Of a stretch of 56,098 nt of DNA, positions 6,206 through 27,017 are shown piece after piece. A model generated the notes under the pieces. The model did not search any database, was not told where the DNA came from, and saw only the letters and a program-made list of their open reading frames with translations. Position 1 is the first letter of the stretch; each line of letters starts with the position of its first letter. The DNA is from a virus, in the IMG/VR virus record IMGVR_UViG_3300048625_000523, positions 1-56,098 of that record; one strand, written 5' to 3'. Made by a program: the position numbers and the translations under genes.

Positions 6206-6800
6206 GTCTCGGCTCACGAGGCAAATCTACGTCGAACAGCGCCAACACCTCGCGCACAGGCCGTTTGTGGCTGACCCACACACAGTTGCCGTTGTGTTCT
6301 GAGGCAATTTTGTGGTGTGATTGCCAAGCAGCTTTGTGCTTTTGTTCTGTGTTGCGCGGATTGAGCGGTTCGAACTTGCCTTTCAACGCTCTGCGCTGTG
6401 TCACACGCTCCAAACATAGCTCGATGGGTGTGTCCAATGTGGCCCAGACAGGATTGTGCCCCATTTCGGAGAGGCTTGACATTGCGCGCCCAACTGACCC
6501 GTACCCGCCTGAAATGAGAAGACCTTCAAATAAAATGTGGCCTTGCGACGCGTAGCGCACCAACAACTCGGGCACAATGTTCTTGTAGTCTGTAATGCCG
6601 TCACAACCCCCACATTGCGTGGCGTACCCACCGAACAAGAAGAGCGGGACGTTGTGCGGCAGGTGTATTTTGTACACGCGAGGAGTGGCCCGCGAGCCTG
6701 CACACTCTACCACACTGCTGGGGAATAGTTTCAGCAGCGTGTGTGCTACAGTACTCTTGCCAGCTCCGGACGTGCCGCGCAGATTGACGATTGTGTGCAT
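6198..6800 (-). CDS. P-loop 5-hydroxymethyluracil DNA kinase (5-HMUDK type)
   Basis: A 200-residue P-loop kinase. The Walker A is RGTSGAGKST at residues 8-17; further family landmarks are FGGYATQCGGCDGI (55-68, a CxxC-like pair typical of these kinases) and GHILFEGLLISGG (86-98, Walker B region), then a DTPIELCLERVTQRR segment with a lid-like Arg pair. Kinases of this family phosphorylate 5-hydroxymethyl-dU within DNA, giving the pyrophosphorylated leaving group needed for amino acid transfer. The chosen start ATG 6800 lies one base after the upstream stop (TGACATG); a longer in-frame reading exists but begins inside that gene. Confidence 0.88.
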   Translation of the reverse strand: MHTIVNLRGTSGAGKSTVAHTLLKLFPSSVVECAGSRATPRVYKIHLPHNVPLFLFGGYATQCGGCDGITDYKNIVPELLVRYASQGHILFEGLLISGGYGSVGRAMSSLSEMGHNPVWATLDTPIELCLERVTQRRALKGKFEPLNPRNTEQKHKAAWQSHHKIASEHNGNCVWVSHKRPVREVLALFDVDLPREPRHG

Positions 6801-6801
6801 G

Positions 6802-6984
6802 TCACAAGCCTTTCTCATTGAGGGTTGTGTTATGGGTTCCATACAAGACCATCATTCGCAGACGCTCTCTGGCCTTGTGCCTGGCAATCAGTTGTCTGCA
6901 GTTTCGCAAAAGCACATATTCACGCACAGCGAACACTGCCAAAATTGTCAGTGCCAAACTGCAACATCCTGTAAAAATTGACAT
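6802..6984 (-). CDS. Small single-pass membrane protein inside the hypermodification locus
   Basis: A 60-residue protein reading MSIFTGCCSLALTILAVF with one apolar segment (about residues 5-22), then a very basic tail (LIARHKARERLRMM). The start has GAGGAGG upstream and comes directly after the FAD-enzyme stop (TAACATG); its own stop is followed at once by the kinase start, so the spacing fits a real gene. I recognise no family. A membrane protein between two DNA-modification enzymes is unexpected; it may be an unrelated moron or may tether the complex. Confidence 0.55.
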   Translation of the reverse strand: MSIFTGCCSLALTILAVFAVREYVLLRNCRQLIARHKARERLRMMVLYGTHNTTLNEKGL

Positions 6985-6985
6985 G

Positions 6986-7801
6986 TTACAGAGCCTCCTC
7001 TGCAAATTGTACCGCCTGTGCTGCAGCCAACAGCGTGCCATTCTTCGCCCCGCCTGTGGAAACCCACGTGTTCGGAGTCACCCGGCGAAAGTACCCCGCC
7101 TTGTGACCTTCGACGTATGGGCGAACACCCACTGTCAGCTTGCCCCCGACCAATCCAAACAAGTCTCGAGCTCGTTCAAGGCTCGCAGCTCCTCGGGTCT
7201 GTGTGTTCCAAGACTTCTCCACGAGAGCAGTCCCGTCTCCAAACCACACCGACCCTTTCTTGCCTCCAATGCGCAGTGCAACTGCTTGTCGATATGGGGC
7301 ATAGACATGCAACCGATCCACAGACCAATCTGGTGGGTTCTTGTACCGCACTGAAGCTCCCCACAATCCACGAATATTGGGCATATCTTCAATCAATTCT
7401 TGAGACCACACACCTGCAGCAACAAGCACCCGCCCTTTCAAAATTGTGCCTGAGGCGAGCGTAACTTTGCCGTCTGACACAGACAATACTTGCTCTTGTA
7501 CGTCTGCAGGAATTAGGATCTTGTCGGGGTTGATGTGTTGCACTGGCAATTTGACGAGCAAATTGGTTTGCAATACACGATCTTCCACGTCGTACAAATC
7601 ACGCAACAACTGGAAGCCGTTCTCCTTCTGTTCGTCTGTCAAAGACGCCAGCCAGCTGGGCTTCAACACACATCCTGAGGCTTTAGAAGCGGCATTGGGG
7701 TGTCCTGCATCCACCACGGTCACAGAGGCTCCTCGAGCCCTGCAAAGCGTCGCAGCCATGCTGCCAAACAAGCCAGCCCCTATGATGACTATCGGTTTCA
7801 T
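6986..7801 (-). CDS. FAD-dependent DAO-fold enzyme, probable glycyl-thymine lyase/oxidase
   Basis: A 271-residue flavoprotein of the D-amino-acid/glycine oxidase fold, shorter than typical DAO enzymes. The dinucleotide site is VIIGAGLFGSMAA (residues 5-17) with an acidic end at VVDAG; a second FAD contact is GRVLVAAGVWSQ; the C-terminal signature is GVRPYVEGH followed by STGGAKNGT. In phage thymidine hypermodification, a flavin-dependent lyase cleaves glycyl-thymine to leave 5-aminomethyl-dU. That role is inferred from context: the kinase, aGPT-type genes and acetyltransferase are all adjacent. A clear CAGGAGCTGAGA site precedes ATG 7801. Confidence 0.85.
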   Translation of the reverse strand: MKPIVIIGAGLFGSMAATLCRARGASVTVVDAGHPNAASKASGCVLKPSWLASLTDEQKENGFQLLRDLYDVEDRVLQTNLLVKLPVQHINPDKILIPADVQEQVLSVSDGKVTLASGTILKGRVLVAAGVWSQELIEDMPNIRGLWGASVRYKNPPDWSVDRLHVYAPYRQAVALRIGGKKGSVWFGDGTALVEKSWNTQTRGAASLERARDLFGLVGGKLTVGVRPYVEGHKAGYFRRVTPNTWVSTGGAKNGTLLAAAQAVQFAEEAL

Positions 7802-7822
7802 TCTCAGCTCCTGCAGTGAGTG

Positions 7823-8641
7823 TCAAACTTCTGGCGGCATGCATCGCAACAGTTGTTGTGCCAGGTCTCCCCAGCCCACGAGTGCATGCCGTATCTCTGA
7901 TATGTCTTTACCGACTTGGTAATGGCCTTTTACATGACTCTTGTACTTGCAAAAAATGGATTCCACCTCTTGAACATTGACCAGTCGGTCTCTGGCAGGG
8001 GGAGCCTTCATTCGCTTCGATCGAAAGTATTGGATCTCAGCTTCCACGGTTTCTCGAAGTTCGTCGTCTGTGATGCTAGTTTTCCAATCACCTGTGCGAA
8101 CAAGAGCTGCACCTTGACGCGGGTCTTTGTAAATGCCAAGATGGCAGTCGTCAAAATTCACGTCGTACCCCAGCACCCGCTCAGCCATGTCTGCTATCTT
8201 GAATGCAATCCACGGGCCGAAGCCTCTGTGTCGTTGTGCACAAGCTGCCACATTGTTGTATGTTGTCTGCTTGTCAAGCATGAAAGCAGGGTCTCCCACA
8301 ATCGCCCGAACAGCTGCGCTGGGAGTCTTGTACCGTTGCGTGAGTTCTTCCACTGCGTTGATTGCCTGATCTCCTCGGAAGTGTCTGCGCTCTGCGCCTC
8401 TGGGCCAGGGCTTGGGGTCTCCTAGATTGACAGCAGCTTCCAACATCTTCGCCCAATACTTCTTCGGATTTTTGATCTCGCCAAACTTGGCTGCCACCCC
8501 CAAGTGGTAGAAGCACCAATATGCCAGGCACGTACGATCCAGGGTCTCTGGATCCAGCGCTGCTTTGTGCAAAGCAACATAGACTGGATCCAGATCCTGC
8601 GTACGCAGCAAAGCTTCTCCAAACTCGCGTACGGAGAGCAT
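7823..8641 (-). CDS. Second aGPT-PPlase-type amino acid:DNA transferase
   Basis: A 272-residue helical protein of a different clade from the one at 4831-5748. Landmarks: DLDPVYVALHKA (17-28), YWCFYHLGVAAKF (41-53), the diagnostic RGAERRHFRG (81-90), FGPWIAFKIADMAERVLG (141-158) and an Asp pair in NFDDCHLG. This clade is linked to transfer of an amino acid to pyrophosphorylated 5-hmdU in DNA. The start at 8641 is one base after the upstream stop (TGACATG); the longer reading to 8740 runs antisense-free but lies inside the upstream gene and is not needed. It is the first gene of the modification cluster in transcription order. Confidence 0.85.
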   Translation of the reverse strand: MLSVREFGEALLRTQDLDPVYVALHKAALDPETLDRTCLAYWCFYHLGVAAKFGEIKNPKKYWAKMLEAAVNLGDPKPWPRGAERRHFRGDQAINAVEELTQRYKTPSAAVRAIVGDPAFMLDKQTTYNNVAACAQRHRGFGPWIAFKIADMAERVLGYDVNFDDCHLGIYKDPRQGAALVRTGDWKTSITDDELRETVEAEIQYFRSKRMKAPPARDRLVNVQEVESIFCKYKSHVKGHYQVGKDISEIRHALVGWGDLAQQLLRCMPPEV

Positions 8642-8642
8642 G

Positions 8643-9299
8643 TCAGTCTTTGACCAAAATGCCGTTGGAAGTGCAGAAATAGAAGTAGCGCGTGTAGCGA
8701 GCATCTTCCTGCCCCGGATGTGCGGTCTTGACAGCAGCACACAACGATTCGCGGGTGAAAGACTTCATCTTTTGGGCTACGGCAACGAAGTCCTTGATGA
8801 AGCCGCGCTTCACTGCAGACACATCACCAATCTTGTACGTCTCCGGCTTTTCCGCTTTGGCAGCGGGTGCGGCTTTGGCAGCGGGTGCGGCTTTGGCAGC
8901 GGGTGCGGCTTTGGCAGCGGGTGCGGCTTTGGCAGCGGGTGCGGCTTTGGCAGCGGGTGCGGCTTTGGCAGCGGGTGCGGCTTTGGCCGGGGTCTTGGAA
9001 GGGGTTGCAACAGCCATTTCAGATTCTCCAGATTCTGCCAACAAGGGGAAAAAGCTCAAGAGGTGTTGGCGAACCTCAGGAGCCATAAAGACACCACGAA
9101 TTTTGAAACAAAGTGCTGCCGCTCTATCTACTGCGTAGTCCAGGTAGGGCACCCATTTGTTGTCGAACTCGGCAACAGCCGACGTGGCAAGATGAAACCC
9201 AGTGCTCAACATAGGTACGAAAGTCACAGTGGTTTTTGTTCTCGCGACGACGATGCAAGTATTTGAACGGTGTTTGCAGACATATGGCAGTGCAGACAT
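8643..9299 (-). CDS. Repeat-linker protein with C-terminal winged-helix-like domain
   Basis: A 218-residue protein in three parts: an N-terminal domain of about 95 residues (no known match), a linker of seven AAPAAK repeats (about residues 106-147), and a C-terminal domain of about 60 residues. The C-terminal domain (KRGFIKDF ... TRYFYFCTSNGILVK) resembles the whole small protein at 27985-28218 (KRGFLKTL ... VRYAYYAVQHGLLT) and looks like a small winged helix. The flexible tether and nucleic-acid-type domain suggest a DNA-bound accessory factor; function is otherwise unknown. AGGAGAGCTGAA precedes ATG 9299, and a candidate promoter is just upstream. Confidence 0.75.
   Translation of the reverse strand: MSALPYVCKHRSNTCIVVARTKTTVTFVPMLSTGFHLATSAVAEFDNKWVPYLDYAVDRAAALCFKIRGVFMAPEVRQHLLSFFPLLAESGESEMAVATPSKTPAKAAPAAKAAPAAKAAPAAKAAPAAKAAPAAKAAPAAKAAPAAKAEKPETYKIGDVSAVKRGFIKDFVAVAQKMKSFTRESLCAAVKTAHPGQEDARYTRYFYFCTSNGILVKD
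8859..8984 (-). repeat. In-frame tandem repeat, 7 x 18 bp (AAPAAK linker)
   Basis: Seven copies of an 18-bp unit (on the + strand ggcagcgggtgcggcttt) lie within the gene at 8643-9299 and encode a Lys/Ala/Pro linker. The copies are essentially identical at DNA level, so expansion by slippage is recent. Confidence 0.95.
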
Positions 9300-9315
9300 T
9301 TCAGCTCTCCTGTTA

Positions 9316-9330
9316 GACGGCAGGTCAGTA
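9316..9330 (-). promoter_or_regulatory. Candidate phage promoter element (TACTGA...CCGTC)
   Basis: Read on the minus strand this reads TACTGACCTGCCGTC, about 17-31 bp upstream of ATG 9299. The same arrangement (TACTGA, short gap, CCGTC) occurs upstream of two other leftward units (27049-27064 and 25950-25965). It lies in one of the few intergenic gaps of the leftward block. Promoter role is inference from recurrence and position. Confidence 0.4.
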
Positions 9331-9346
9331 CTGATACTTTACCCCA

Positions 9347-10825
9347 TTATTCTAGAAGTGGCAAGGTCTTAGCACGACGTTTCTGAAGTGCTGTGAAAAA
9401 ATCTCGCTGCTCTCGGTCTCTTCGACGCACACACCAACGCACAGCCTCTTCCACGGTGTCCTTCGCAACAAGCATGTAGCAGTGCAAGTGCTTGGCCTCA
9501 TTGCCTTGTCGCCGCAGGCGTCGATTCAATTGGTCTGTCAGCTCAAAGTCTGGGGTCATTGTGAACCACAACAAGTGCGACGCGTGAGACTTCTGCATGT
9601 TCAACCCATGCCCTGCAGATTGTGGATGCACCCACAACCACTGCAATTCTCCTGCGTTCCACAACCGTTCCAACTCCAGAGAACGTTTGGTGCTCACCCC
9701 ACCACCAATGTAAGGCACATTGTCTTTGCCGAAGTATTCTTGTGCTCGCATTAAGTCGTGTGTGAAATTGTAAGCCACAAGCAGTTGTTGCCCTTGCAAC
9801 TCTTCGAGGAGTTCTTCAACCAATACCAGCTTCTCTTTGTGCACTTCTATGTATTCACGTGCTGTGCGCTTGCGAGCTGTTGGTAGCAAGGCTGCAACTT
9901 CGTCGTCTGCATCTGTTACAAACACTGCACCACTCGCAACTTGGCGCAATTTCATGGACTTCACACCACTGTTTGCAGCAGACACAACTTTGTCGTCTAT
10001 CTCCGCGAAAAGTTGATCTTCCAATTTGTCATAGATTCTGCGAGCCTCTGGCGGGAGTTCAAACGACAGGATGTGGTCTAGTTGTTGTGGCAAGTCCAGA
10101 TAGTCGTCTGCGTTCATGCGCAACGCAAGTGGTCGCACCCGCTCGTAAATGTGTTGTTCTGCCCCGTCTTTCAGAACCCATACATGCTCATTAATGTTGG
10201 AGAAGTACGAGAATCTGAAGTACGTTATGTACTTGCCCAAGGCCTTGCCCATGTCCAACATGTAGCATTGCCCAAACAACCCCATCAACCCATTAGCGGC
10301 AGGGGAACCTGTCAAACCCCATCGGTGTTGAAATTTTACAAGCAACGGCTTCAATAGTTTGTAACGGTCTGTGTTCGGGTGTTTGAATTTTGACAATTCG
10401 TCGATTATCAGCGTGTCAATTTTACCCTGCTTCAAAAGCCTTTGCAAATGGCCTTTAGACACCAACCACTTCAACCCCTCAGGATTTATCACATACACAT
10501 CAGCCTCTTCTTGTACTGTCGCCTCTTTGTGCGGCCCGTGCAACACCACAACTTTGATGCCATGGAAGTCTGTCCATTCTTGCTGTTCAGCAGGCCATAC
10601 GCTGCGGGCTGGGCGCAGCGGTGCGACAACCAGAGCTCCTTTGAAAGAGTCATGCTTCTTTTTCAGTGCAATGGCAGCGTAGGTGATGCTTGTCTTGCCC
10701 AACCCTGGGTCAAGGAACAGCGCGGCTTCGTCGTGCTCGAGTAGAAACTTCACAGCTCTTTTCTGGTAGGCGTGCGGTGTCCAACGCTTGCTGGATTGTT
10801 TGGATTGCCACTTCTTTGTTGTCAT
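9347..10825 (-). CDS. SNF2/DEAD-type superfamily 2 helicase
   Basis: A 492-residue SF2 ATPase. Motif I is LDPGLGKTS, motif II IIDELS (DEAH-box position), motif III LTGSPAAN, and the second RecA-like domain ends with PQSAGHGLN (motif V) and DQLNRRLRRQG (motif VI). The spacing is typical of compact phage SNF2-like helicases that follow a VRR-NUC nuclease gene, as here. Probable role in replication or recombination. Start ATG 10825 lies inside the upstream nuclease gene, giving an unusually long 116-bp overlap; no later Met precedes motif I. Confidence 0.88.
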   Translation of the reverse strand: MTTKKWQSKQSSKRWTPHAYQKRAVKFLLEHDEAALFLDPGLGKTSITYAAIALKKKHDSFKGALVVAPLRPARSVWPAEQQEWTDFHGIKVVVLHGPHKEATVQEEADVYVINPEGLKWLVSKGHLQRLLKQGKIDTLIIDELSKFKHPNTDRYKLLKPLLVKFQHRWGLTGSPAANGLMGLFGQCYMLDMGKALGKYITYFRFSYFSNINEHVWVLKDGAEQHIYERVRPLALRMNADDYLDLPQQLDHILSFELPPEARRIYDKLEDQLFAEIDDKVVSAANSGVKSMKLRQVASGAVFVTDADDEVAALLPTARKRTAREYIEVHKEKLVLVEELLEELQGQQLLVAYNFTHDLMRAQEYFGKDNVPYIGGGVSTKRSLELERLWNAGELQWLWVHPQSAGHGLNMQKSHASHLLWFTMTPDFELTDQLNRRLRRQGNEAKHLHCYMLVAKDTVEEAVRWCVRRRDREQRDFFTALQKRRAKTLPLLE

Positions 10826-11063
10826 ACACATAAACCTCATACCCAAGTTTCTGCAGTGCTCTGTGCACAAGCTTCTGGCGCTCTGTGGGCTCTCCCCCAG
10901 GCCGTTTGAATTCTATGAACACAGCCTTGCCTTGTGGCAGAAAGAATACTCTGTCCGGCCATCCAACGTTGCCCGACACGTTCAATTTTAGAGAGATTAC
11001 ACCCTGCAGCGCAGCCCACCGCACCACAGGATCTTCAACATCTCTTTTCTCTAATATTGACAT
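10710..11063 (-). CDS. VRR-NUC domain nuclease
   Basis: A 117-residue stand-alone VRR-NUC nuclease. The core reads GWPDRVFFLP (catalytic Asp) then KAVFIEFKRPGG (E-x-K) and TERQKLVHRALQKLGYEV, as in phage Holliday-junction-type VRR-NUC enzymes. The start at ATG 11063 overlaps the upstream gene by 13 bp with a GGTGG site. The basic C-terminal tail (from about residue 95) is encoded in DNA shared with the N-terminus of the helicase. Probable partner of that helicase in processing branched DNA. Confidence 0.85.
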   Translation of the reverse strand: MSILEKRDVEDPVVRWAALQGVISLKLNVSGNVGWPDRVFFLPQGKAVFIEFKRPGGEPTERQKLVHRALQKLGYEVYVYDNKEVAIQTIQQALDTARLPEKSCEVSTRARRSRAVP

Positions 11064-11767
11064 GGACCACCATTGGACTTGCGAAAGTGGCACCACCGGC
11101 ACTTGGCGTTCGGCGTAGGGTCGAACCGCGTATCTGCCAACATCTTTTTAGTCTTCTTCAACCACAGCTTCTTCAACTTATCAAGGTCTGCACGCTCATA
11201 GATGAGAGGGTCTTCGTCCACAGGGGGAAAGATTGTGCCTTCGTCCAAATATCGCAACATGGGCTTTACTCGTTGCGCTTCACGTACAAGAATGAGCCCT
11301 GCCAGCGCATACAACTGCAACTGTTCTACGTATGCAGCTTCGTCATCTGGTCGTTGCTTACCTGTCTTGTGATCCACCACAACCAACGTACCACACTCTG
11401 TGAATTCTGCGTAGTCCAATTTCACCCGCAACCAAGCCTCAGCCCAATCATTCCATTGCGTCTCTGTCCAGTCGGCTTTGAGCGTCCAACTGTCTTCCAC
11501 AAACACAGGCCACTGCTTGCTCTTATAAAGCTTAGCCTCGCGGGTGAAGTCTTCTTTGAAGGCATTCAATTCTGGGGGCAACTTCTTCAAAACACCTTTG
11601 ACAAAGTCTTCTGCCAATTTGTGTATTGCGGTGCCTCGCTCCATGGCAGCATTGGAAGGTTCCTTCAACTTGTCCACATGCTTGAACTTTGCTTTCGCAG
11701 GGCATTGAACGTAGTCTCTATACCTCGAGAATGACCAACTGGTAATTTTGACTTGTTTGTATGCCAT
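11051..11767 (-). CDS. RecB/Cas4-like PD-(D/E)XK exonuclease
   Basis: A 238-residue nuclease of the PDDEXK_1 family. It starts with SFSRYRDYVQCPAKAKF, a common N-terminal Cys motif; the catalytic core is VVVDHKTGKQ (D-x-K) followed by a QLQLYALA helix; a C-terminal cysteine group (CRWCHF ... GGPC) with the N-terminal Cys could hold an Fe-S cluster as in Cas4/AddB. It follows the DNA polymerase by one base and precedes the VRR-NUC gene, so it belongs to the replication/recombination set. Confidence 0.88.
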   Translation of the reverse strand: MAYKQVKITSWSFSRYRDYVQCPAKAKFKHVDKLKEPSNAAMERGTAIHKLAEDFVKGVLKKLPPELNAFKEDFTREAKLYKSKQWPVFVEDSWTLKADWTETQWNDWAEAWLRVKLDYAEFTECGTLVVVDHKTGKQRPDDEAAYVEQLQLYALAGLILVREAQRVKPMLRYLDEGTIFPPVDEDPLIYERADLDKLKKLWLKKTKKMLADTRFDPTPNAKCRWCHFRKSNGGPCQY

Positions 11768-11768
11768 A

Positions 11769-13667
11769 TCAACTCCACGCAGATAGATTGGGTTCCGGCT
11801 CTTTCAATTCTTCGAGCTCTGACCATCTTGCACCAACTTCGCCTTCCGACAACATTGGCACGTCAAATTCAACGGACATCATGATGTCGCGCAATCGCAA
11901 CATTTCACGCTTCAAAGCTTTTTTCGGGGCGCTGATATCAATTTCATCATGCACTGTCAGCATGAATCGGGCGTCCCCGTACCCTGCTTCATAGTACCGA
12001 CAAAGAGCTTCTTTGGTGCAGTCTGCTGCCGTACCTTGAATCAAGTAATTCAGCAACTTGTATTCAAATGTTTGGATTCCTCCGTTGTCGAGCTTGCGAG
12101 GCGGTTCGCAAAAATACTGTCTCCCACCCCATGTACGGATTGATTGTCCACTGCGACCTCTGAACTTGAGCGCATCCTCCAATGTCTTCACTCCTGGCAG
12201 CACACCTTGTTGTGCCCGCTTTATGCCGCGAGCTTCTTCCACGGTGCGTTGAATGCGTTCTGCCAGGGTGCCCAACCCCATCCCGTACAACATGCCAAAG
12301 TTGATCGTCTTCACGGATCCTCTGTCCAATGCCAAGCCCAATCCTGCTAACCGTTCTCGCACATATTGGTGTACATCCAGCCACGGGTTTTCCAAGAATG
12401 CTTGCAGCAGTGCTCCGTCTTCGAAGTGGGCCAGAATGCGGATTTCTTGTGAAGAATAGTCTCTGCGACCGATCAAGTGGGTGGGTTTGTCAGCCAGCAC
12501 ATACTTGCGTATGAGCGGCAAATGTTCAAGATTCTTTATGAACGTGGGGTGCTCCCAACCATCTTGCTTTTCCTCCATGTCTTTGGGGATGTTCTGGAAG
12601 TTCGGCGAACTTTGCAGTCGATTGCTTCGAGCCCCACCTTCGTCGGATCCAGAACTTCCGCGCATTTGTCTCCAGTGAGTGTGTATCAATCCGCCGGTGT
12701 TCTCTGCTTGTTCAAGCCAAGGCCTCATGAATGTGCGGATGAATGTAGTGAGACGTGCTCTATACCCCAAAGCCAACCACAGCTCTTGATCTGCAAACTG
12801 GTGCTTCTTTGTTGTCTTCTTGCTCAGAGACTTATTGCCCTTCTCTGTCAGAGACCAATCGCTCACAGACCCTGCGTCGTCCAGAGCTGAGACCATTTTG
12901 CGTGGGCTGTCGAAGTCAAGTTCTGCAACCCCCAACCGCTTCAACATCCACTGTTCCACACGTTGCTGCGCTGCTTCGTACTTTGGCAATTCAGCTTGCA
13001 ACAGAGGCAAATCCACTCGAATGCCTTCCGCTTCATTGCGACGCAACATCGGCAACAATCGTTGCTCGCGTCTGTAGGCCTCCCACATGCCGCGCTCTCG
13101 GATGCTTGGGGCCAGGTGCTTGAACAACTTAATTGTACGCTCCACGTCGCCATTGGCGTACGGAGCCACAATATTCCCAGGCACCTTGCTAATGAATTCC
13201 CCAACATCCTTGCGAGACCGTGGAACCACGTTATGAACCCACAACCATTCACGCATGGTGTCTCGTTCATCGGGGGGCAACCCAAGTAGTCGTTCTGCCG
13301 ACGGTTTCAGCTCTAGGCTGAAGGCATGCGGGTTATCTAGCGCAAGCAAAAACATTGTGTCGTGACACTTGTCTTCCGGCGGAGCAACAGCTCCGCAGTG
13401 CGCTTCAGCCACATCTAGGTCGAATGACCCGTGGTGACAAACCAACCCGAGAGTGCAAGCTTCTTTCAAAGCTTCACGCACATGCCGCTTACCGTCTTCT
13501 TCAGAACAGTTGTTGCCCCCCGAAGAGTGCCCCCAAGCAAAGTACTTGGGGGTTCGCCAACTTGGCATTTTGATGCTGACCCCAACAGGTTTGGGCGGGT
13601 AGTCAGGCCGCTTCCTGATAGGTTCAGTTTCAAAGTCCAAGCCGATGGGATTGTCGAGACGCGACAT
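11769..13667 (-). CDS. Family A DNA polymerase with 3'-5' exonuclease
   Basis: A 632-residue replicative polymerase. The proofreading domain shows Exo I GLDFETEP and Exo II CHHGSFDLDV. Polymerase motif A is RRDYSSQEIRILAH (Asp and Glu placed as in DYSQIELR), motif B RGSVKTINFGMLYGMG (Phe at the position controlling dideoxy discrimination), and motif C TVHDEID. A 5'-3' exonuclease domain is absent, as in T7-type phage polymerases. It would have to accept 5-hydroxymethyl-dUTP if the hypermodification model is right. Gene order puts it between a probable ssDNA-binding protein and the Cas4-like nuclease. Confidence 0.95.
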   Translation of the reverse strand: MSRLDNPIGLDFETEPIRKRPDYPPKPVGVSIKMPSWRTPKYFAWGHSSGGNNCSEEDGKRHVREALKEACTLGLVCHHGSFDLDVAEAHCGAVAPPEDKCHDTMFLLALDNPHAFSLELKPSAERLLGLPPDERDTMREWLWVHNVVPRSRKDVGEFISKVPGNIVAPYANGDVERTIKLFKHLAPSIRERGMWEAYRREQRLLPMLRRNEAEGIRVDLPLLQAELPKYEAAQQRVEQWMLKRLGVAELDFDSPRKMVSALDDAGSVSDWSLTEKGNKSLSKKTTKKHQFADQELWLALGYRARLTTFIRTFMRPWLEQAENTGGLIHTHWRQMRGSSGSDEGGARSNRLQSSPNFQNIPKDMEEKQDGWEHPTFIKNLEHLPLIRKYVLADKPTHLIGRRDYSSQEIRILAHFEDGALLQAFLENPWLDVHQYVRERLAGLGLALDRGSVKTINFGMLYGMGLGTLAERIQRTVEEARGIKRAQQGVLPGVKTLEDALKFRGRSGQSIRTWGGRQYFCEPPRKLDNGGIQTFEYKLLNYLIQGTAADCTKEALCRYYEAGYGDARFMLTVHDEIDISAPKKALKREMLRLRDIMMSVEFDVPMLSEGEVGARWSELEELKEPEPNLSAWS

Positions 13668-17631: not shown

Positions 17632-19656
17632 CTACCATTTTGACTTTGACGCGAGCGGATGATGTTCGTCGTAGTGGTTGCACGCTTCCTTCCACGCAGC
17701 TGAGCCTCTCCAATATCCGTCATTGCGAATCGCATATACCATAATCATCGTACCATCCGCCGTGCGCAGTCGGTTCCCAGCACAAGGTGGGTTGAATCCT
17801 GCCCTCTTCAACTCGCGCGACATTGTATTGAGCGTGCAGCGCGAATTGCCCAACGGGTCGTACAGTGCCAACAATTCTTTGGGTGTGAACAGGTCTCCAG
17901 TCAGTCCAGCGCGGTGCAGCATGGAAGTGGTGTTGATGCGCAGTTCTTGCACCCATGCAGCGATATCACTCTTGTTCGCCGATTGCATGTGCATCTTGCT
18001 GATCGTCATTGGTGCGGGCTCCGTGGGGTCGAATTTGCTGGTGTCCACGGTCAGCAAGTGGTGCCACAAAGCGGATATAAATTCGTCATCATTTAGTGCT
18101 GCAACAGCTCGTTTGCGCAAAGACACAGACAACTTACCGCTCAAAACTTCGTGGATGAAGAACCTTCGGTCTTGGTCGTCCATTGTCAGTGCGTCAGGAT
18201 CGTTGGACGTGATGTAGTAGTTGATAGTGTCCAGTATGGAGTATGATGGTATGAACTTCGGATCTAGTCGTATGTACTTCTGCGTGACCATTGTCATCAA
18301 TCGCCTCATGAACCTGCGGTCTCCACGTGCTGTAATATCGTCAGCCAATGCAAACTGCTTGTTCTCAGCCCACTGGAACCGTCCATCGTCCAAGTCTTGA
18401 TCCTTCAGCTCTGTGCTGTTCTTGCCGTAAATCCGACACACCATACTTCCGATCAACGTCTTGCCTGTGCCGTGCTCCGGCCCCCACACCAACACAGCAG
18501 TGTTCAATTTGTATCCGGGGTTCTGCAGCGGATAGGCCAGCCATTGTTCGAACCAATTGCGCGATTCATCCTGCTTCAGGAACAAGTGGTCCAATAACTC
18601 GTGCCAAACTGAACAATCACCTTGTCTCGGTGCGTCTATACCCCACCCACTCCATGTATTGAGAAGCCCTTGTTGTGTGACCGTGGGTTCTCCAGGCGCG
18701 AAGGCCACGCCACGCACTTCACTGCGATGCTCCCACTTCAACCACTCCGTGGCTGCAGACTTCTTGGTCAGCGTTACTTCGCCACGCTTGTTCACAGTTT
18801 GTTCCCAGTGTGCAATGTTGGCAAAGGCGTGGTTTGTAAATGATTGTGGGGGCAGCTTTTGTTTCAGTTCATGATCCCACACGAATCCTGGGTCTCTGAC
18901 ATACACCACTCTTTGGTTGAGCGCATGCAGTGCTTGCGATGGGCTGAACTCGACAGCACCCAATAACACTGCATCCAATTCTTCCGCACCGTACAAGAGT
19001 ATGAAGTCGTCCAACCCAACCTTGCTGACTTCTTCATTTGCGGGCAACCGCGCCAACATTACTCGGGCTCCCAGCTCTAGCAGTCGTTTAGACAACACAC
19101 CTTCGGCCCGCACAATGTCGGGATTCGTGGCTGCGTCGGAGTCGAACACAATGTATACCATGCGTCCATCCCATGCAAATTGTTGCAAGGAAGGTAGCAC
19201 ATGCAACTCATTCTTTTTGGACATGAAACACCAAACCCCGCCCAATCCCAGCGTGGGGTACCCAAACTTGGTCGCGCAAGCAGCTTTCAACTCACCTTCA
19301 GTGATAATCAGTGGTACTGAAGGGTCTTGAGCGATGGCAACCCAATCAACGAATGGTGCAAAATACACTTCATTGATCGTGGCCGAAGGTTGTCCGTATC
19401 TCAGGGGCTTGGGTTGTGTGATTTTATCGAAACCTTTGCGGGTGTCTGCAAGGTACCGGTACCGATAGAACTTCGTGACTTTGCCATCCAGGGCGAAGTA
19501 TGGTATTTTGAAGCCTGCTGCGTATGCAGGCAATTTGAGAGACTTTTTGGCTTCAGCTTCTTGAAGCAGCTCCAGCTTGAGCAATTTTGCATCAGACAAA
19601 TCAAGCAGCGAACCACCCAGCTTATTCTCAAACAGCGTTTCTAAGGGTTCTGTCAT
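17632..19656 (-). CDS. Primase/helicase: TOPRIM-like (DUF3854) plus D5/VirE-type helicase
   Basis: A 674-residue multidomain replication protein. The N-terminal third has a TOPRIM/DUF3854-type segment, LIITEGELKAACATKFG followed by LGLGGVW and later VYIVFDSDAATN (metal Asp pair). A long middle leads to an SF3/D5-like ATPase: VLVWGPEHGTGKT (Walker A), FALADDITARGDRR (Walker B/sensor) and YYITSNDPDA. The C-terminus has a small winged-helix-like part. This architecture is a phage/plasmid primase-helicase. Start ATG 19656 lacks a good ribosome site; an internal start cannot be excluded. Confidence 0.88.
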   Translation of the reverse strand: MTEPLETLFENKLGGSLLDLSDAKLLKLELLQEAEAKKSLKLPAYAAGFKIPYFALDGKVTKFYRYRYLADTRKGFDKITQPKPLRYGQPSATINEVYFAPFVDWVAIAQDPSVPLIITEGELKAACATKFGYPTLGLGGVWCFMSKKNELHVLPSLQQFAWDGRMVYIVFDSDAATNPDIVRAEGVLSKRLLELGARVMLARLPANEEVSKVGLDDFILLYGAEELDAVLLGAVEFSPSQALHALNQRVVYVRDPGFVWDHELKQKLPPQSFTNHAFANIAHWEQTVNKRGEVTLTKKSAATEWLKWEHRSEVRGVAFAPGEPTVTQQGLLNTWSGWGIDAPRQGDCSVWHELLDHLFLKQDESRNWFEQWLAYPLQNPGYKLNTAVLVWGPEHGTGKTLIGSMVCRIYGKNSTELKDQDLDDGRFQWAENKQFALADDITARGDRRFMRRLMTMVTQKYIRLDPKFIPSYSILDTINYYITSNDPDALTMDDQDRRFFIHEVLSGKLSVSLRKRAVAALNDDEFISALWHHLLTVDTSKFDPTEPAPMTISKMHMQSANKSDIAAWVQELRINTTSMLHRAGLTGDLFTPKELLALYDPLGNSRCTLNTMSRELKRAGFNPPCAGNRLRTADGTMIMVYAIRNDGYWRGSAAWKEACNHYDEHHPLASKSKW

Positions 19657-20933: not shown

Positions 20934-20964
20934 TGTTGTCCTCCGTTGTTGTCTACACCTTGTA

Positions 20965-21026
20965 TCTAGATATGTGCTTTGGGTGTCAGCCCTTCGGTCG
21001 GCTGTCGCTGATCTCAAACGTCAGAA
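20965..21026 (+). repeat. Eroded attC-like site (right arm only)
   Basis: The right end reads CTGATCTCAAACGTCAGAA, matching the L'-spacer-R' layout of the intact attC sites further right (TCAAAC before a degenerate R' box GTCAGAA at 21020-21026). A CCTTCGG hairpin loop lies to the left, but I cannot define an R'' box. Probably a decayed cassette junction. Confidence 0.3.
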
Positions 21027-21027
21027 C

Positions 21028-21261
21028 TCATTTTCTACCATTCAGCCACTGTTTAGCCTTTGCAAGCCGCGAGTTCATTGCTTCGCTTTTGTATGGGCCT
21101 GAAGTGTGCTTAATGCTGTTTTGCAAATCAATAGTCGATGCATGCCCAAGTGGTACACCTAGTAGTCCAAAGCCTAAGCACGAATTTGATATGTTTTGCT
21201 GCTGCGCGTTGTATCGGGCGCGGGCTGCATCGCTCATTGAAAAGTATTCGTATTGGTCCAT
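21028..21261 (-). CDS. Hypothetical small protein
   Basis: A 77-residue protein starting MDQYEYFSMSDAARARYNAQ. AGGAGTTAGAA precedes ATG 21261. It lies between two decayed attC-like sites, so it may once have been a cassette. No known function. Confidence 0.55.
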   Translation of the reverse strand: MDQYEYFSMSDAARARYNAQQQNISNSCLGFGLLGVPLGHASTIDLQNSIKHTSGPYKSEAMNSRLAKAKQWLNGRK

Positions 21262-21337
21262 TTCTAACTCCTATGTGCGTTCTAGCTCTTCAATCCATGG
21301 GACTCGCTACAAGCCGCCGGGTATTTCTGCGTTATCC
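21262..21337 (+). repeat. Degenerate attC-like site
   Basis: The right end GTTATCC (21331-21337) is a proper R' box, and the upstream gene stop is formed inside it. The left box TTCTAAC (21262-21268) doubles as the ribosome site of the neighbouring gene, so its attC identity is uncertain. The 76-bp length and GC-rich middle fit. Confidence 0.35.
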
Positions 21338-21633: not shown

Positions 21634-21721
21634 GCCTAACACGCCAGCCAAGCTGGCTCCGGCAAGCTGCGCTTGTGATGCCCTCGTTTCACTCGGCTGC
21701 CTCTTACCTCAAACGTTCGGC
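21634..21721 (+). repeat. attC site A
   Basis: An 88-bp site with R'' GCCTAAC (21634-21640) and R' GTTCGGC (21715-21721), preceded by the TCAAAC spacer seen in the other sites. The R' box is the exact complement of the R'' box at the far end of the next cassette (22128), not of its own R'' partner. Confidence 0.7.
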
Positions 21722-21722
21722 G

Positions 21723-22106
21723 TCATGGGCGGCTATCCGCGCCGCACCTGGGGCAGCAGCCAGACCACATCTGCGCTTCGCTCATAAACACCTTGCAGCT
21801 TTCGCACCGGTATTGCTCGCGCTTCGGCTTCGGCTTTGGCTCGGGCGTCAGCACAATACCGGTTCCGGCCAGCGCCTCTTCGCGCTTGATGTACTGCATA
21901 TCAACAGCCGGGCGCGTCTTGGCGTCGATGTAATCCTTGGGCCACGGAATGTCCGTCTCGCGCATTTCGTGTTGGGCAACTGCTTCGTCTTTGGTGTAAG
22001 CGTGAGCCTTACTTAAATCAGTCGTGTAACCTTTGCCGTCCTTGGCCCACCAAAGCACATCGTTCCCGACATAGCCACGGCTGTCTTGCAGATAAAATAG
22101 TTGCAT
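21723..22106 (-). CDS. Cassette-borne protein with C-terminal zinc ribbon
   Basis: A 127-residue protein. The N-terminal part (LFYLQDSRGYVGNDVLWW ... KGYTTDLSKAHAYTKDEA) is a small beta-rich domain found in phage/accessory proteins; the C-terminus holds two Cys pairs, YRCESCKVF and GCCPRCGAD, a zinc ribbon. AAGGACTAAAC precedes ATG 22106. The gene sits between attC sites A and B whose facing R boxes (GTTCGGC and GCCGAAC) are exact complements, so this is a complete cassette. Confidence 0.7.
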   Translation of the reverse strand: MQLFYLQDSRGYVGNDVLWWAKDGKGYTTDLSKAHAYTKDEAVAQHEMRETDIPWPKDYIDAKTRPAVDMQYIKREEALAGTGIVLTPEPKPKPKREQYRCESCKVFMSEAQMWSGCCPRCGADSRP

Positions 22107-22127
22107 GTTTAGTCCTTTTAAGATGAC

Positions 22128-22199
22128 GCCGAACACTACATTCGAGGGGATTCGCTGCAAGCTGCGCTTTCCGCTCTCCCCTCACTTACTTCAGCCAGT
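22128..22199 (+). repeat. attC site B (degenerate R')
   Basis: R'' GCCGAAC (22128-22134), 5-bp spacer, L'' ATTCGAGG; right arm CCTCACT with a 6-bp spacer, then AGCCAGT where R' is expected. L'' has one extra base compared with the complement of L', giving + polarity. The left arm is nearly identical to that of site F. Confidence 0.6.
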
Positions 22200-22372
22200 A
22201 TGCACGCTGTTGCGAGTTTCGCAATCAAGCTATTGTGTGCGGCATGCCACCCTGCCCACGCATCTTGTACCGATGGCAAAACATAATCCCCCGCCTCGTT
22301 TCGGCGTTTTGTGTGCTGATTGTTTCCGAGATGTTCGAGTTCAAACGCCTTACGAATTTTGTTTTCATTCAT
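22136..22372 (-). CDS. Cassette-borne small phage accessory protein
   Basis: A 78-residue protein starting MNENKIRKAFELEHLGN with the phrase VQDAWAGWHAAH, common in small phage and prophage proteins of the form FExW ... DAWxGW. The last 15 residues are translated from attC site B itself. AAGGAGAATTAA precedes ATG 22372. Function unknown. Confidence 0.65.
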   Translation of the reverse strand: MNENKIRKAFELEHLGNNQHTKRRNEAGDYVLPSVQDAWAGWHAAHNSLIAKLATACILAEVSEGRAESAACSESPRM

Positions 22373-22393
22373 TTAATTCTCCTTGTTTAGCCA

Positions 22394-22454
22394 GCCTAAC
22401 TAATCGCTTGAGCGCGACTCCGCTTCGCTACGCGCCTCATCTCAAACGTTCGGC
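22394..22454 (+). repeat. attC site C
   Basis: A compact 61-bp site: R'' GCCTAAC (22394-22400), 5-bp spacer, L'' GCTTGAGC, a GC-rich stem with CGCTTCGCTACGCG, then TCAAAC and R' GTTCGGC (22448-22454). Its length is that of class 1 integron 59-base elements. Confidence 0.8.
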
Positions 22455-22684
22455 GTCAAAATCGCTTCAGCCAATTGCATGCCTTCTGCAACAGCCTCAT
22501 CCCGCATCACTCTGGCGGCGAGCCGGTCAATTCCCAGCACCTTGGCAAATTGCCCCTCGCTTAGATTTCCCGTCTCCCATGCCAGCAGCAATTGCGCGTT
22601 CTCCAGTTCTGTCTTCAGGCTGCATGCCGTGCCTCTGTGTTTGGCTTGGTAGAGCCTGTAGCGTCGTTGCTTTAGTTGATCCAT
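22442..22684 (-). CDS. Cassette-borne helix-turn-helix-like protein
   Basis: An 80-residue protein (from ATG 22684; AAAGGTG at proper distance). The segment LSEGQFAKVLGIDRLAARVMRDEA looks like a helix-turn-helix, so a DNA-binding role is possible. The final residues TPNV are encoded by the R' and spacer of attC C. Flanking R boxes GTTCGGC (22448) and GCCGAAC (22705) are exact complements. Confidence 0.65.
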   Translation of the reverse strand: MDQLKQRRYRLYQAKHRGTACSLKTELENAQLLLAWETGNLSEGQFAKVLGIDRLAARVMRDEAVAEGMQLAEAILTPNV

Positions 22685-22704
22685 GTTCATCACCTTTCTG
22701 TGAC

Positions 22705-22788
22705 GCCGAACAATTCCGTCGAGCGGACGGTTGCAAGCTGGGTTTCTTAACGTGGTCAGTCCGCGCCTGCTCACGTCAAACGTTAGGC
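22705..22788 (+). repeat. attC site D
   Basis: An 84-bp site: R'' GCCGAAC (22705-22711), AATTC spacer, L'' CGTCGAGC; right arm GCTCACG, TCAAAC, R' GTTAGGC (22782-22788). The complement of L' is CGTGAGC, so L'' carries one extra base (C), the asymmetry that sets attC polarity to the + strand. Confidence 0.85.
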
Positions 22789-22967
22789 GTCGAGTTTGCC
22801 CGCACTTTCTTTGCTGCGTCCTTGAGCAAAGTTGTTGCAAAACTGTCCAGCAAGTATTCGCAAGATTGGTTCGTTTTCCACAGGGCGATATTCTGTTCTG
22901 CGGCTTCTACCAACTGCATCGCAGTTGAGTTTTCAATGCTTTCTTCCGGCAAACAAAACAAGCCCAT
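22776..22967 (-). CDS. Cassette-borne small protein
   Basis: A 63-residue protein starting MGLFCLPEESIENST; CGGAGATAACT precedes ATG 22967. It ends NSTPNV, again encoded by the attC arm. Flanking R boxes GTTAGGC (22782) and GCCTAAC (22988) are exact complements. Function unknown. Confidence 0.6.
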   Translation of the reverse strand: MGLFCLPEESIENSTAMQLVEAAEQNIALWKTNQSCEYLLDSFATTLLKDAAKKVRANSTPNV

Positions 22968-22987
22968 AGTTATCTCCGTTATCGCCT

Positions 22988-23070
22988 GCCTAACCACTCC
23001 GCCGAGCAGACGGGTTGAAGCTAGGCCGTTTAATTAGTCTTGTCCGCCGCTGCTCACGTCAGCGTTATGC
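22988..23070 (+). repeat. attC site E
   Basis: An 83-bp site: R'' GCCTAAC (22988-22994), CACTC spacer, L'' CGCCGAGC; right arm GCTCACG, TCAGC-type spacer, R' GTTATGC (23064-23070). L'' again has the extra base relative to L'. The middle is long and imperfectly paired. Confidence 0.8.
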
Positions 23071-23337
23071 ATCACGATCATCAAGCGCCAAAGCTGCGTC
23101 AATCGCACTCAGCGCGCCTTCATCGTAGGTGCGGCACACAATCGCGGCCCGCGCCTCTTTCAGAGCTGACAAAAGTTGCTCGCACTTCCCTGTGCCTGTT
23201 TCGTGGTCGGCTTCAAGTTCAAGCGTTTTCACTCTCAAGCGTTCAATTTCCTTCGCCGCAGCCAGATATAGCGACGTGTTTTCATAAAGGTGATTTCTCT
23301 CTGCCACATCGCGCAGATGTTCGACTACATCGTACAT
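23065..23337 (-). CDS. Cassette-borne coiled-coil protein
   Basis: A 90-residue protein starting MYDVVEHLRDVAERN with a long heptad helix (KEIERLRVKTLELEADHE, residues about 29-60). This form is common among phage accessory proteins. The stop codon is formed inside the R' box GTTATGC of site E. Function unknown. Confidence 0.65.
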   Translation of the reverse strand: MYDVVEHLRDVAERNHLYENTSLYLAAAKEIERLRVKTLELEADHETGTGKCEQLLSALKEARAAIVCRTYDEGALSAIDAALALDDRDA

Positions 23338-23356
23338 TTCAGTCTCCCTAAGTGAC

Positions 23357-23427
23357 CCCTAACACTACATTCGAGAGGGATTCGCTCAAGCTACGCTTTT
23401 CGCTACCCCTCAATTACGACGTCAACC
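23357..23427 (+). repeat. attC site F (degenerate R')
   Basis: R'' CCCTAAC (23357-23363), ACTAC spacer, L'' ATTCGAGA; right arm CCTCAAT, TACGAC spacer, then GTCAACC (23421-23427) in place of a canonical R'. L'' ATTCGAG versus complement ATTGAG shows the extra base. The perfect partner of its R'' box, GTTAGGG, occurs at 24133. Confidence 0.6.
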
Positions 23428-23562
23428 AACACGAACATGCCGGCAGCCCGCGATATCGCAATCGCGACAAACGATCACAGCTCCGCTGTCCGGGCTTCTG
23501 ACTTTGCACTATAACTCCGCACAGCAAGTCCAGTTGCTGTTGTTTTGTCGGGTACATGAGGC

Positions 23563-23856
23563 TTACAGCATTTCGTCCAAACGCGCACGGTCTGCCTTGG
23601 ACAACTTCTTTTCTTTAGTTGCAAGATGCTGGCCCACGTACCGTTCCCCTCCCTTGATAAGCAAAGCTGTTTCATCCGGGGAAAGAAAGGTAATAACGTC
23701 GGGGTTACGTCTCAATGTGTCATGAATAAGCCCCATAATGTTCTTATATGCAGGCACGTCAGAGGCCAAGGCTGTTTCTAATTCTGCAAAATGCATCTGC
23801 AAACGGGTTGCATCTTCGGCTGAAAGCGTCGCTTCCGGTATGTCCAACATTGGCAT
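23563..23856 (-). CDS. Hypothetical protein
   Basis: A 97-residue helical protein starting MPMLDIPEATLSAEDATRL, with a Lys/Arg-rich C-terminus. AGGAGAACACC precedes ATG 23856. It lies in a two-gene block between attC site F and the GTTAGGG box at 24133. Nothing recognisable lies in the 135 bp between it and site F. Confidence 0.6.
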   Translation of the reverse strand: MPMLDIPEATLSAEDATRLQMHFAELETALASDVPAYKNIMGLIHDTLRRNPDVITFLSPDETALLIKGGERYVGQHLATKEKKLSKADRARLDEML

Positions 23857-23912
23857 ATAAGGTGTTCTCCTAGTTTGTTAAAACTTAAGTAGTTTGGCAA
23901 GTACCCCTGCTA

Positions 23913-24074
23913 TCATTTAATCCTCCGCATGATGTTACGTTTAACCCACGGCTCCGGGCGTGTAGCCAGCTTCTTTGCTGCATCATCCTTGGCCTTGGCC
24001 TGTTCATTTGCCACAGCCGCGAGCATAAACACAGCCAAAGATGCAGCGAAAAAGTATCCAAATATCTTAGCCAC
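23913..24074 (-). CDS. Small single-pass membrane protein
   Basis: A 53-residue protein from GTG 24074, chosen because TTGGAGGTATCTAACT precedes it at good spacing; a TTG at 24104 would add ten residues. Residues 2-21 (AKIFGYFFAASLAVFMLAAV) form a transmembrane helix; the rest is basic and ends RRIK. Function unknown. Confidence 0.55.
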   Translation of the reverse strand: MAKIFGYFFAASLAVFMLAAVANEQAKAKDDAAKKLATRPEPWVKRNIMRRIK

Positions 24075-24094
24075 AGTTAGATACCTCCAAGATG

Positions 24095-24139
24095 GATAAA
24101 CCAATACGGCCTCATTTTGAGGCCGACTTCACGTTAGGG
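24095..24139 (+). repeat. Possible short attC-like site with R' GTTAGGG
   Basis: A GGCCTC-ATTTT-GAGGCC hairpin is followed by R' GTTAGGG (24133-24139). The left box GATAAAC (24095-24101) is a poor R''. The R' is the exact complement of the R'' CCCTAAC of site F, 770 bp to the left. Confidence 0.35.
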
Positions 24140-24462
24140 GTCAGCGGCTCCATCGTGTAGTTGCCACGCCAAGCCATATCGCTCGGCCAGTGCGAACCGT
24201 CCTCACAATCGCAGTCCTGATCTAGTGGTGCGCTGTCGGGGCGCATGTCCTTGTCAATGCACTGCGCAGAGTGCGTGACAACGCCGCAGCAAACCTGCTC
24301 AACTTCCTCGCTCCAGCCTTCATCAAGGTATCCGGCGATGGCGTCCTCTGCTGCTGCATCGCGGTCTTCTTCTGTGCGGAAAAACATCACCCCTTCCCAC
24401 TCAGGATCGAACAACCAAAACGGGTATTCGCTGTGCGGGTGCATCTTGTAATCTTTTGCCAT
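24112..24462 (-). CDS. Cassette-borne phage accessory protein, acidic
   Basis: A 116-residue acidic protein starting MAKDYKMHPHSEYPFW. The phrases EEDRDAAAEDAIAGYLDEGW and WSEEVEQVCCGVVTHSAQ match a small protein type seen in siphovirus/podovirus accessory regions (unknown function). The C-terminal LTPNVKSASK is encoded by the attC-like right arm. Flanking boxes are GTTAGGG and CGCTAAC, one base short of perfect pairing. AAAGG precedes the start. Confidence 0.65.
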   Translation of the reverse strand: MAKDYKMHPHSEYPFWLFDPEWEGVMFFRTEEDRDAAAEDAIAGYLDEGWSEEVEQVCCGVVTHSAQCIDKDMRPDSAPLDQDCDCEDGSHWPSDMAWRGNYTMEPLTPNVKSASK

Positions 24463-24485
24463 GCTTAAACCTTTCTGGGTCGAAC

Positions 24486-24563
24486 CGCTAACAAATCAAT
24501 CAACCACGCTCCACTTCGTTCCGCTGGACTCGCTACGCTCGCCGGTTATCTCAAACGTTAGCG
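24486..24563 (+). repeat. attC site H
   Basis: A 78-bp site and the best preserved: R'' CGCTAAC (24486-24492) and R' GTTAGCG (24557-24563) are exact complements of each other. AAATC spacer, L'' AATCAACC; right arm GGTTATC then TCAAAC. The complement of L' is GATAACC, so L'' has an extra base. The stem includes CGCTGGACTCGCTACGC. Confidence 0.85.
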
Positions 24564-24570
24564 CCCATGT

Positions 24571-24804
24571 TCAAAGTGCATCTAGCGCCGCTTGTATTGC
24601 AATTCGTTCCGCTGGTATGTCTGCCACCAGCATCCATGAGCTTTCACCCTGCTCCCAATGTGTGCTGCTACATTCCACATAGGCCCGCTCTTTGGGATCA
24701 ATATAAAAACACACAGCATCTTCGTTCCCAAGAACCATATGCCCTTCCGTGCATGAAAGCTGCACAGAACCTTGCCGCAACACTGTTAGTCGAGTGTCTT
24801 TCAT
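24571..24804 (-). CDS. Hypothetical small protein next to last attC
   Basis: A 77-residue protein starting MKDTRLTVLRQGSVQLSC, a beta-rich half followed by a helical end (ERIAIQAALDAL). It ends 7 bp before the R' box of site H. No further attC lies upstream of it, so it may be the array boundary or an ordinary phage gene. Confidence 0.6.
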   Translation of the reverse strand: MKDTRLTVLRQGSVQLSCTEGHMVLGNEDAVCFYIDPKERAYVECSSTHWEQGESSWMLVADIPAERIAIQAALDAL

Positions 24805-26027: not shown

Positions 26028-27017
26028 TCACGCAGAGAGGGCCAACTGCACGGCAGCCGCTTTGCGCCCAGCTCCAGCCCCGTACCATGCTTGGTACAAG
26101 CTGTGATCCACCGTCTTGCGCGTCCTGGCGGCAGCCAAGTCATAATCAACAGTCTCCGTCACGGCGTTCAACCACCCCCAAGCCGTGCCTGCCACTCCGG
26201 CGAGCTCCGCGCCTTTGCCCGCGCCGTCGAAGAGTGTGAGGATCTTCGTGTAAGCGGGGGACGCCTCAACCTTCCGAGCTGCGTCGGTTCCACGGCCTGC
26301 ACCGGGGGCGAGCAGTTGCAGCGTCATGTCGGCAGCTGCGAGGTCGGAAACACGCTTCTTTGCAAGGTCGCGAGCTGTGGAGATGAACTCTTTGAAGTTC
26401 CCTCGAGCCACACCCAGGGAGTCCTTCACTGCTGCCGGGTTGAACGTGGAGCGGTGCCCAATCTTCACGCCTTGCAGCTGTCCAGGTTGCATCGCCATCG
26501 ACAACGTATTGTTGCACACTACACGCACCGTCGTGAAGCGTGCATCCGTGGCGGTGGATCCGTCTGCACTGGTAGAAAGCAACAAGTACCCACCCACCAC
26601 ATCTTTGGGGGAGATAATTTTGGCCGACTCATTGATGCGAGCCAAAGCCCAGAACCGCTTGCCCTGGAACAACGTGCCTGCGGTCTCGAGTGTGAAGCCA
26701 TTATCCACCACAAGGTCGCTGAAGAACTCCAGCACCTCGGCAGGTTGCACCACTTTATACATGTCGGACACAATGCCCAATCCCTCTCCGGTGTCGGAGC
26801 GGTGCAGCACGCGCTGATTGTCGAAGGTGCGCAGGCCTTCGGGGGTGCTGTATGCCACAGCGGAAGATTGGATGCTCCAATCGAACCGTGCGGCTTGGAT
26901 CCAGGTGGGGATGTCAGCACCTTCGGGCAATTGTTGGCCCAATTGGTGCCACGGTGTGGTTCCTACGTAAGCCATTTCAGCCTTGTTGTCTGCGCGGATG
27001 GTAAGTTCGTGTGCCAT
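26028..27017 (-). CDS. DUF932 family phage/plasmid-like protein
   Basis: A 329-residue protein of the DUF932 (TIGR03299-type) family, recognised from MAYVGTTPWHQLGQQLPEG near the start, GEGLGIVSDMYKVVQPAEVLEFF, and RVVCNNTLSMAM in the middle, with a helical C-terminus. The family is widespread in phages and plasmids and its biochemical role is unknown; it is often the first and highly expressed gene of an early operon, as here. GAGGAGCTGAGAACC precedes ATG 27017. Confidence 0.88.
   Translation of the reverse strand: MAHELTIRADNKAEMAYVGTTPWHQLGQQLPEGADIPTWIQAARFDWSIQSSAVAYSTPEGLRTFDNQRVLHRSDTGEGLGIVSDMYKVVQPAEVLEFFSDLVVDNGFTLETAGTLFQGKRFWALARINESAKIISPKDVVGGYLLLSTSADGSTATDARFTTVRVVCNNTLSMAMQPGQLQGVKIGHRSTFNPAAVKDSLGVARGNFKEFISTARDLAKKRVSDLAAADMTLQLLAPGAGRGTDAARKVEASPAYTKILTLFDGAGKGAELAGVAGTAWGWLNAVTETVDYDLAAARTRKTVDHSLYQAWYGAGAGRKAAAVQLALSA

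Follow-up and report, generated by a model that had tools for sequence, protein, structure and literature searches.

The metagenomic virus contig IMGVR_UViG_3300048625_000523 (56,098 bp, end repeats absent), analysed here over its whole length and called the window, carries seven integron attC sites between positions 21,634 and 24,563, interspersed with small open reading frames (ORFs). The canonical top strand of every attC site lies on the plus strand, and all of the ORFs lie on the minus strand, a point not remarked on in an earlier note on this locus, which had been made from the sequence alone. The window is a tailed-phage genome: a TerL gene is found at 28.7-30.4 kb, genes for the portal and the major capsid protein are on the same contig, and the contig also encodes a primase, PolA, a helicase and ThyX. 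Early genes occupy the minus strand left of ~27 kb and late genes the plus strand right of it, and the GC skew tracks the coding strand (-0.11 left, +0.07 right). The array sits in the early region, as the earlier note had placed it, between the primase gene and a gene for a conserved phage protein. That note's report of no integron integrase gene also held, since PF00589 (tyrosine-recombinase/integrase domain) had no match anywhere in the 56-kb record. Seven attC sites in one orientation within 3 kb, together with the blank PF00589 search, make this a cluster of attC sites lacking an integron integrase (CALIN), and the phage genes on both sides make it a phage-borne one. It does not qualify as a complete integron, as an integrase domain was not found in the window; attI was not searched for.

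The attC sites were scored with a covariance model, R1 (alignment A2), trained on 27 attC sites, all from bacterial loci with intI and none from the window. The training sites came from 80 bacterial loci retrieved with an integron-integrase alignment, and R1 mirrors proteobacterial attC types. All seven sites named in the earlier note were recovered, exclusively on the plus strand, at 45.5 to 17.9 bits, and across the whole 56 kb the best R1 match beyond them had an E-value of 0.6. An independent two-ended weight matrix detected six sites on the plus strand at 19-41 bits and none on the minus strand; Markov shuffles of the window gave 0.2 matches per window. The strongest is site 4 (22705..22788, R' GTTAGGC; 45.5 bits, E 2e-10). 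Recognisable R' boxes are also carried by site 1 (21634..21721, R'' GCCTAAC, R' GTTCGGC; 24.5 bits, E 1e-4, weight matrix 35.5), site 3 (22394..22454, R' GTTCGGC; 36.5 bits), site 5 (22988..23070, R' GTTATGC; 23.9 bits) and site 7 (24486..24563, R' GTTAGCG; 27.5 bits for 24487-24561). The R' box has been lost from site 2 (22128..22195; 17.9 bits, E 0.0075) and site 6 (23357..23427; 23.2 bits for 23362-23422). The GTTRRRY box that the note had ascribed to every site is therefore recognisable in five of the seven, and its wording does not suit the GTTATGC and GTTAGCG ends. A scan of the window against Rfam at curated thresholds returned no match. Candidate decayed attC remnants, also on the plus strand, were picked up at ~20.94-21.03 and 21.26-21.34 kb (20940..21336; repeat families D1, D4 and D6, 3-6 bits) and, by reading the sequence, at 24090..24140 (CACGTTAGGGG); none of these is significant on its own. 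Judging from the weak remnants, the array was probably once longer and reached ~20.94 kb.

A bacterial-type array would have ORFs parallel to the attC top strand, but no callable cassette in the window is parallel to its attC site; five are antiparallel and one interval is not callable. Five of the six intervals are filled by one small ORF, as the note had described for all of them, and the longer sixth (23427-24486) holds two or three. In five of the six, a Shine-Dalgarno (SD) sequence and ATG lie 19-21 nt from R'', and the stop codon coincides with the neighbouring R' box or lies just beyond it. ORF 1 (21723..22106, 127 aa; phrog_2457, E 5e-25) shows this layout, with its SD and ATG 21 nt from R'' of site 2 and its stop at R' of site 1. 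ORF 2 (22136..22372, 78 aa; phrog_343, E 1e-5) has an SD and ATG and is the exception at its other end, where the stop falls inside decayed site 2. ORF 3 (22442..22690, 80-82 aa) and ORF 4 (22776..22967, 63 aa) end in a TPNV motif encoded by the attC, and ORF 5 (23065..23337, 90 aa) has its SD and ATG 19 nt from R'' of site 6. The long interval, which has no callable single cassette ORF, contains ORF 6 (23563..23856, 97 aa, with SD and ATG) and ORF 7 (24112..24462, 116 aa; phrog_35663, E 9e-6), the latter with a weak relative in viral array L118 (39% over 59 aa, E 7e-4). The stop of ORF 8 (24571..24804, 77 aa) adjoins R' of site 7, and this protein has a relative in viral array L185 (51% over 53 aa, E 1e-12). 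Altogether, TPNV stands at the C-terminus of three window proteins or close to it, and the attC end encodes it. Such attC-encoded PNV/TPNV tails (window 22442-22690, 22776-22967 and 24112-24462) were also seen in L301, L307 and L340, and the reversed R' region provides stop codons in all three frames. None of the window cassettes was found in the bacterial arrays fetched.

Genes running opposite to attC are the rule in viral arrays and rare in bacterial ones. ORF/attC polarity was scored with one script for both sets. Bacterial intI-linked loci gave 59 parallel and 4 antiparallel cassettes and bacterial genome regions, collected with a pattern wholly inside attC, 71 and 1, so that 5 of 135 pooled bacterial cassettes are antiparallel (130:5). 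The first pattern applied to IMG/VR contigs (TCAAACGTTNGGCGTCA; 3 parallel, 44 antiparallel) contains a reverse stop codon and is thus biased to antiparallel cassettes. The search was therefore repeated with two attC-internal patterns, one of which was also used on the bacterial control genomes, and these gave 4 parallel against 95 antiparallel cassettes with one and 15 against 143 with the other. The IMG/VR arrays found with attC patterns hold 283 antiparallel and 22 parallel cassettes (283/305). Another pattern, YAACACTACATTCGAG, was tried as a viral attC search and discarded, its matches being mostly chance. Since related contigs are not independent, clusters were counted to allow for kinship: 82 are antiparallel, 6 parallel and 4 tied. 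Viral clusters with at least three decisive cassettes are 42:1 antiparallel, against 0 antiparallel and 38 parallel bacterial loci (Fisher 3e-26). IMG/VR contigs are identified computationally, and any trimming of host-like arrays could have depleted parallel arrays but not created antiparallel ones.

Many of these contigs are tailed phages, as judged from terminase matches: PF03237 scored above cut-off in 15 of the 50 records searched and the window's TerL family was matched in 13 of 46, the window included. PF00589 had no match in 39 of 46 records searched, the window included, and in 38 of the 45 array-bearing viral records when the window is set aside. Independent confirmation of the antiparallel arrangement comes from MW202573 (L412), a complete circular phage in which four strong sites lie on the minus strand and the depositor-annotated genes on the plus strand (array 2069-3738). 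The array of Tetrasphaera phage TJE1 is parallel, so not all phage CALINs belong to the antiparallel class. R1 found no sites in the stretches of PH101 and P12002L examined (the last 32 kb of PH101 not included), and the scan therefore under-counts other attC types. One contig, L108 (IMGVR_UViG_3300025451_000030), has at least 17 attC sites at 3684-13648, with 11 callable cassettes antiparallel and 1 parallel, an array far larger than the phage CALINs published in 2023 (PMC9892861). Reversed polarity in ~80 other virus lineages points to a cassette pool that phages maintain and exchange among themselves.

The cargo of the viral arrays is phage-like. Among the products of viral cassettes are an RNA ligase, DUF5131 and several kinds of DNA methylase (N6/N4, C5 and D12). 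Genes from the arrays of L108 and L156 are related to genes of isolated phages that infect many different hosts; the annotations there name RyR-domain proteins, HNH nucleases and FAD-synthetase-related proteins. The sole match between viral and bacterial arrays is an attC sequence, leaving aside L100. This 85-kb IMG/VR contig, probably a misclassified plasmid or else a phage-plasmid, contains a stretch that matches the class 1 integron cassettes of bacterial loci L013, L019 and L020 at 99% identity. Tandem peptide repeats (QLPHLGDAGQGVNRK type and YEDLRRE type) occur in cassette methylases (L295:3086-4228, L274:5713-6813, L293:2495-3550), with unequal copy number between the near-identical contigs L274 and L295. 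On the bacterial side, L035, from a metagenome-assembled genome labelled Chloroflexi, has an integrase ~68% identical to IntI1 and attC sites like those of Hydrogenophaga and Accumulibacter loci; its integron probably reflects a mis-binned contig or horizontal transfer.

The flanking primase (17632..19656, minus strand; phrog_1156, E 2e-32) and PolA are ~42-44% identical to counterparts in Stenotrophomonas, Pseudoxanthomonas and Manatee Spring phages, the flanking conserved protein (26028..27017, minus strand; phrog_1221, E 1e-56) is 42% identical to one of phage DSL-LC04, and the portal shows 42% identity with its counterpart in a Manatee Spring phage and 41% with the one in Caulobacter phage RW. 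A nucleotide search for related isolated phages found none, and neither did a scan of viral contigs with the single primase sequence of the window. Cassette turnover was therefore studied on the other viral arrays, and it is there that the note's prediction of whole-cassette movement with breakpoints at R' is borne out. Segments shared by viral arrays have 175 ends inside the arrays, of which the R' box accounts for 32 and R'' for 10; the zones around one box type make up ~4% of array length. Several of the 32 derive from related contig pairs, and about a dozen look independent. Ends lying inside attC number 51 of the 175. Ten of 22 left R' ends begin exactly one base before the G of R', and R' ends often sit beside different upstream attCs or non-homologous attC bodies. 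Shared ends at R' of differing upstream attCs are a mark of IntI recombination. For example, a 394-bp unit common to L148/L158 and L167/L244 (99.5% identity) has R' at both bounds, with differing attC sites upstream and differing cassettes downstream, and L163 and L200 have in common a 428-bp R'-bounded unit at 100% identity.

We consider it probable that the window array is a CALIN in a phage early region, belonging to a viral antiparallel class on which IntI acts in trans. The cassette genes are on the phage-transcribed strand and would presumably be read by phage transcription. Because they are antiparallel to attC, the strand of attC that IntI recognises, the bottom one, is also the gene's sense strand. 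When the phage infects a host with an integron, IntI provided in trans would act on the folded bottom strands of attC and recombine them at G|TT of R'; what would move is one antiparallel ORF together with the attC that adjoins its start codon. Whole units could thereby be gained, lost and exchanged, chiefly with other phages, and co-infection or host arrays may be where cassettes meet. Reversal may have been favoured in that the bottom strand folds more easily on the lagging-strand template (cf. PMC5371416, PMC11023631): provided that early genes run in the direction of replication, the reversal would place the recombinogenic strand on that template. A wider proposal, which we advance tentatively and hold to be slightly short of an even call, is that phages have a cassette pool of phage genes apart from the bacterial pool, with the genes reversed and moved by host integrases in trans, the reversal being selected as it makes genes co-directional with phage transcription and replication and puts the attC strand on the lagging template. 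If true, phages make use of the integron integrases of their hosts to shuffle accessory genes, methyltransferases for instance, and integrons would be a gene-swapping service for phages, beyond a bacterial adaptive device. The orientation of ORF against attC would also give a simple sequence rule separating viral from bacterial cassettes, by which cassette origin, and why the choice of attC strand couples to gene direction, become testable.

The action of IntI in trans builds on the attC identity of the sites, their antiparallel layout, the phage-type cargo of related arrays, R'-bounded shared units elsewhere and the lack of a PF00589 match in the window; we infer IntI as the natural agent, the meeting place of cassettes and a possible reason for the reversal. 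Several points weigh against this reading. Loss of R' at two window sites indicates that part of the array has decayed, neither gain nor loss of a cassette was observed at the window locus itself, for want of a close relative, and DNA folding of single attC sites was no better than that of shuffles and was uninformative. Moreover, a single whole cassette separates L219 (4796-4815) from L244 (9999-10372), two contigs of different samples with 99.9% identity, and this indel breaks in a 20-bp repeat at R'' rather than at R'; the change may be due to homologous recombination or slippage. A crossover reversed to R'' as a general rule, prompted by this pair, was rejected on the 32 ends at R' against 10 at R''. 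The same pair, together with the shared-segment ends inside attC, speaks for attC sites being passive short repeats whose units move by homologous recombination or slippage with no integrase. As a full account we think this rather unlikely, in view of the preference for R', the left ends placed exactly one base before the G beside non-homologous attC bodies, and the conservation of R box pairs. Homologous recombination between passive repeats is partly true but insufficient, and site-specific exchange at R' is a main but not the sole route.

A bacterial array fragment in a phage, that is, capture of ordinary host cassettes through a host integron as the earlier note had supposed, would suit the proteobacterial type of the window sites and the acceptance of phage attC sites by IntI1 (PMC9892861). 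However, bacterial cassettes are 130:5 parallel and those of the window 0:5, the cargo of viral arrays is phage-like, and outside the class 1 segment of L100 the one viral-bacterial match is an attC, so that simple acquisition of this kind leaves the orientation unexplained and we regard it as unlikely. A viral or other recombinase outside PF00589 that prefers the reversed layout seems very unlikely to us; reversed polarity could reflect a different enzyme and 39 of 46 records, the window included, lack a PF00589 match, but the breakpoints show the canonical IntI polarity, at R' of sequence-defined attC, and no candidate gene is common to the arrays. An assembly error, or hairpins lined up by chance, is scarcely credible as the origin of the array even for a metagenomic contig without end repeats, given E-values down to 2e-10, phage genes flanking the array on both sides and the like arrangement in the complete circular record MW202573; a chimera with a bacterial array would also give parallel ORFs. 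IntI acting in trans on an antiparallel phage CALIN remains our preferred reading.

The presence of attC in phages as such is already known, and the novelty that the earlier note had seen in attC arrays of virulent phages does not stand: Qi et al. (2023, PMC9892861) reported CALINs in the virulent phages Tetrasphaera TJE1, Polaribacter P12002L, Pseudoalteromonas PH101 and Myoviridae MW202573, and IntI1 recombined five of the six phage attC sites tested. The window resembles these integrase-less attC clusters within phage genomes, and MW202573 in particular in its antiparallel genes; it has seven sites, whereas most of the published phage CALINs have 2-3. The antiparallel polarity, that of MW202573 included, goes unmentioned in the available text of the 2023 paper, and the IMG/VR survey shows the antiparallel class to be widespread beyond the phages described there. 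Within the open-licence PMC literature searched, the polarity and its scale appear new, although they may be noted elsewhere. Sedentary chromosomal and class 1 integrons of Proteobacteria are similar to the window in attC sequence type and in the R' crossover point, and differ from it in that the window has no detected intI and its ORFs are reversed relative to attC. In bacteria, ORF and attC top strand share one direction: IntI selects the bottom strand, and the cassette is thereby inserted in the orientation that lets Pc express it (PMC11023631). An attC bottom strand on the lagging-strand template raises excision (PMC5371416, PMC11023631). Reversal in phages would put the attC bottom strand there, as in the inverted Vibrio cholerae superintegron (PMC11023631) and in lagging-template arrays (PMC5371416). 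In the Vibrio cholerae case, however, the whole array is inverted together with its ORFs, whereas what is reversed in the phages is solely how the ORF lies relative to attC.

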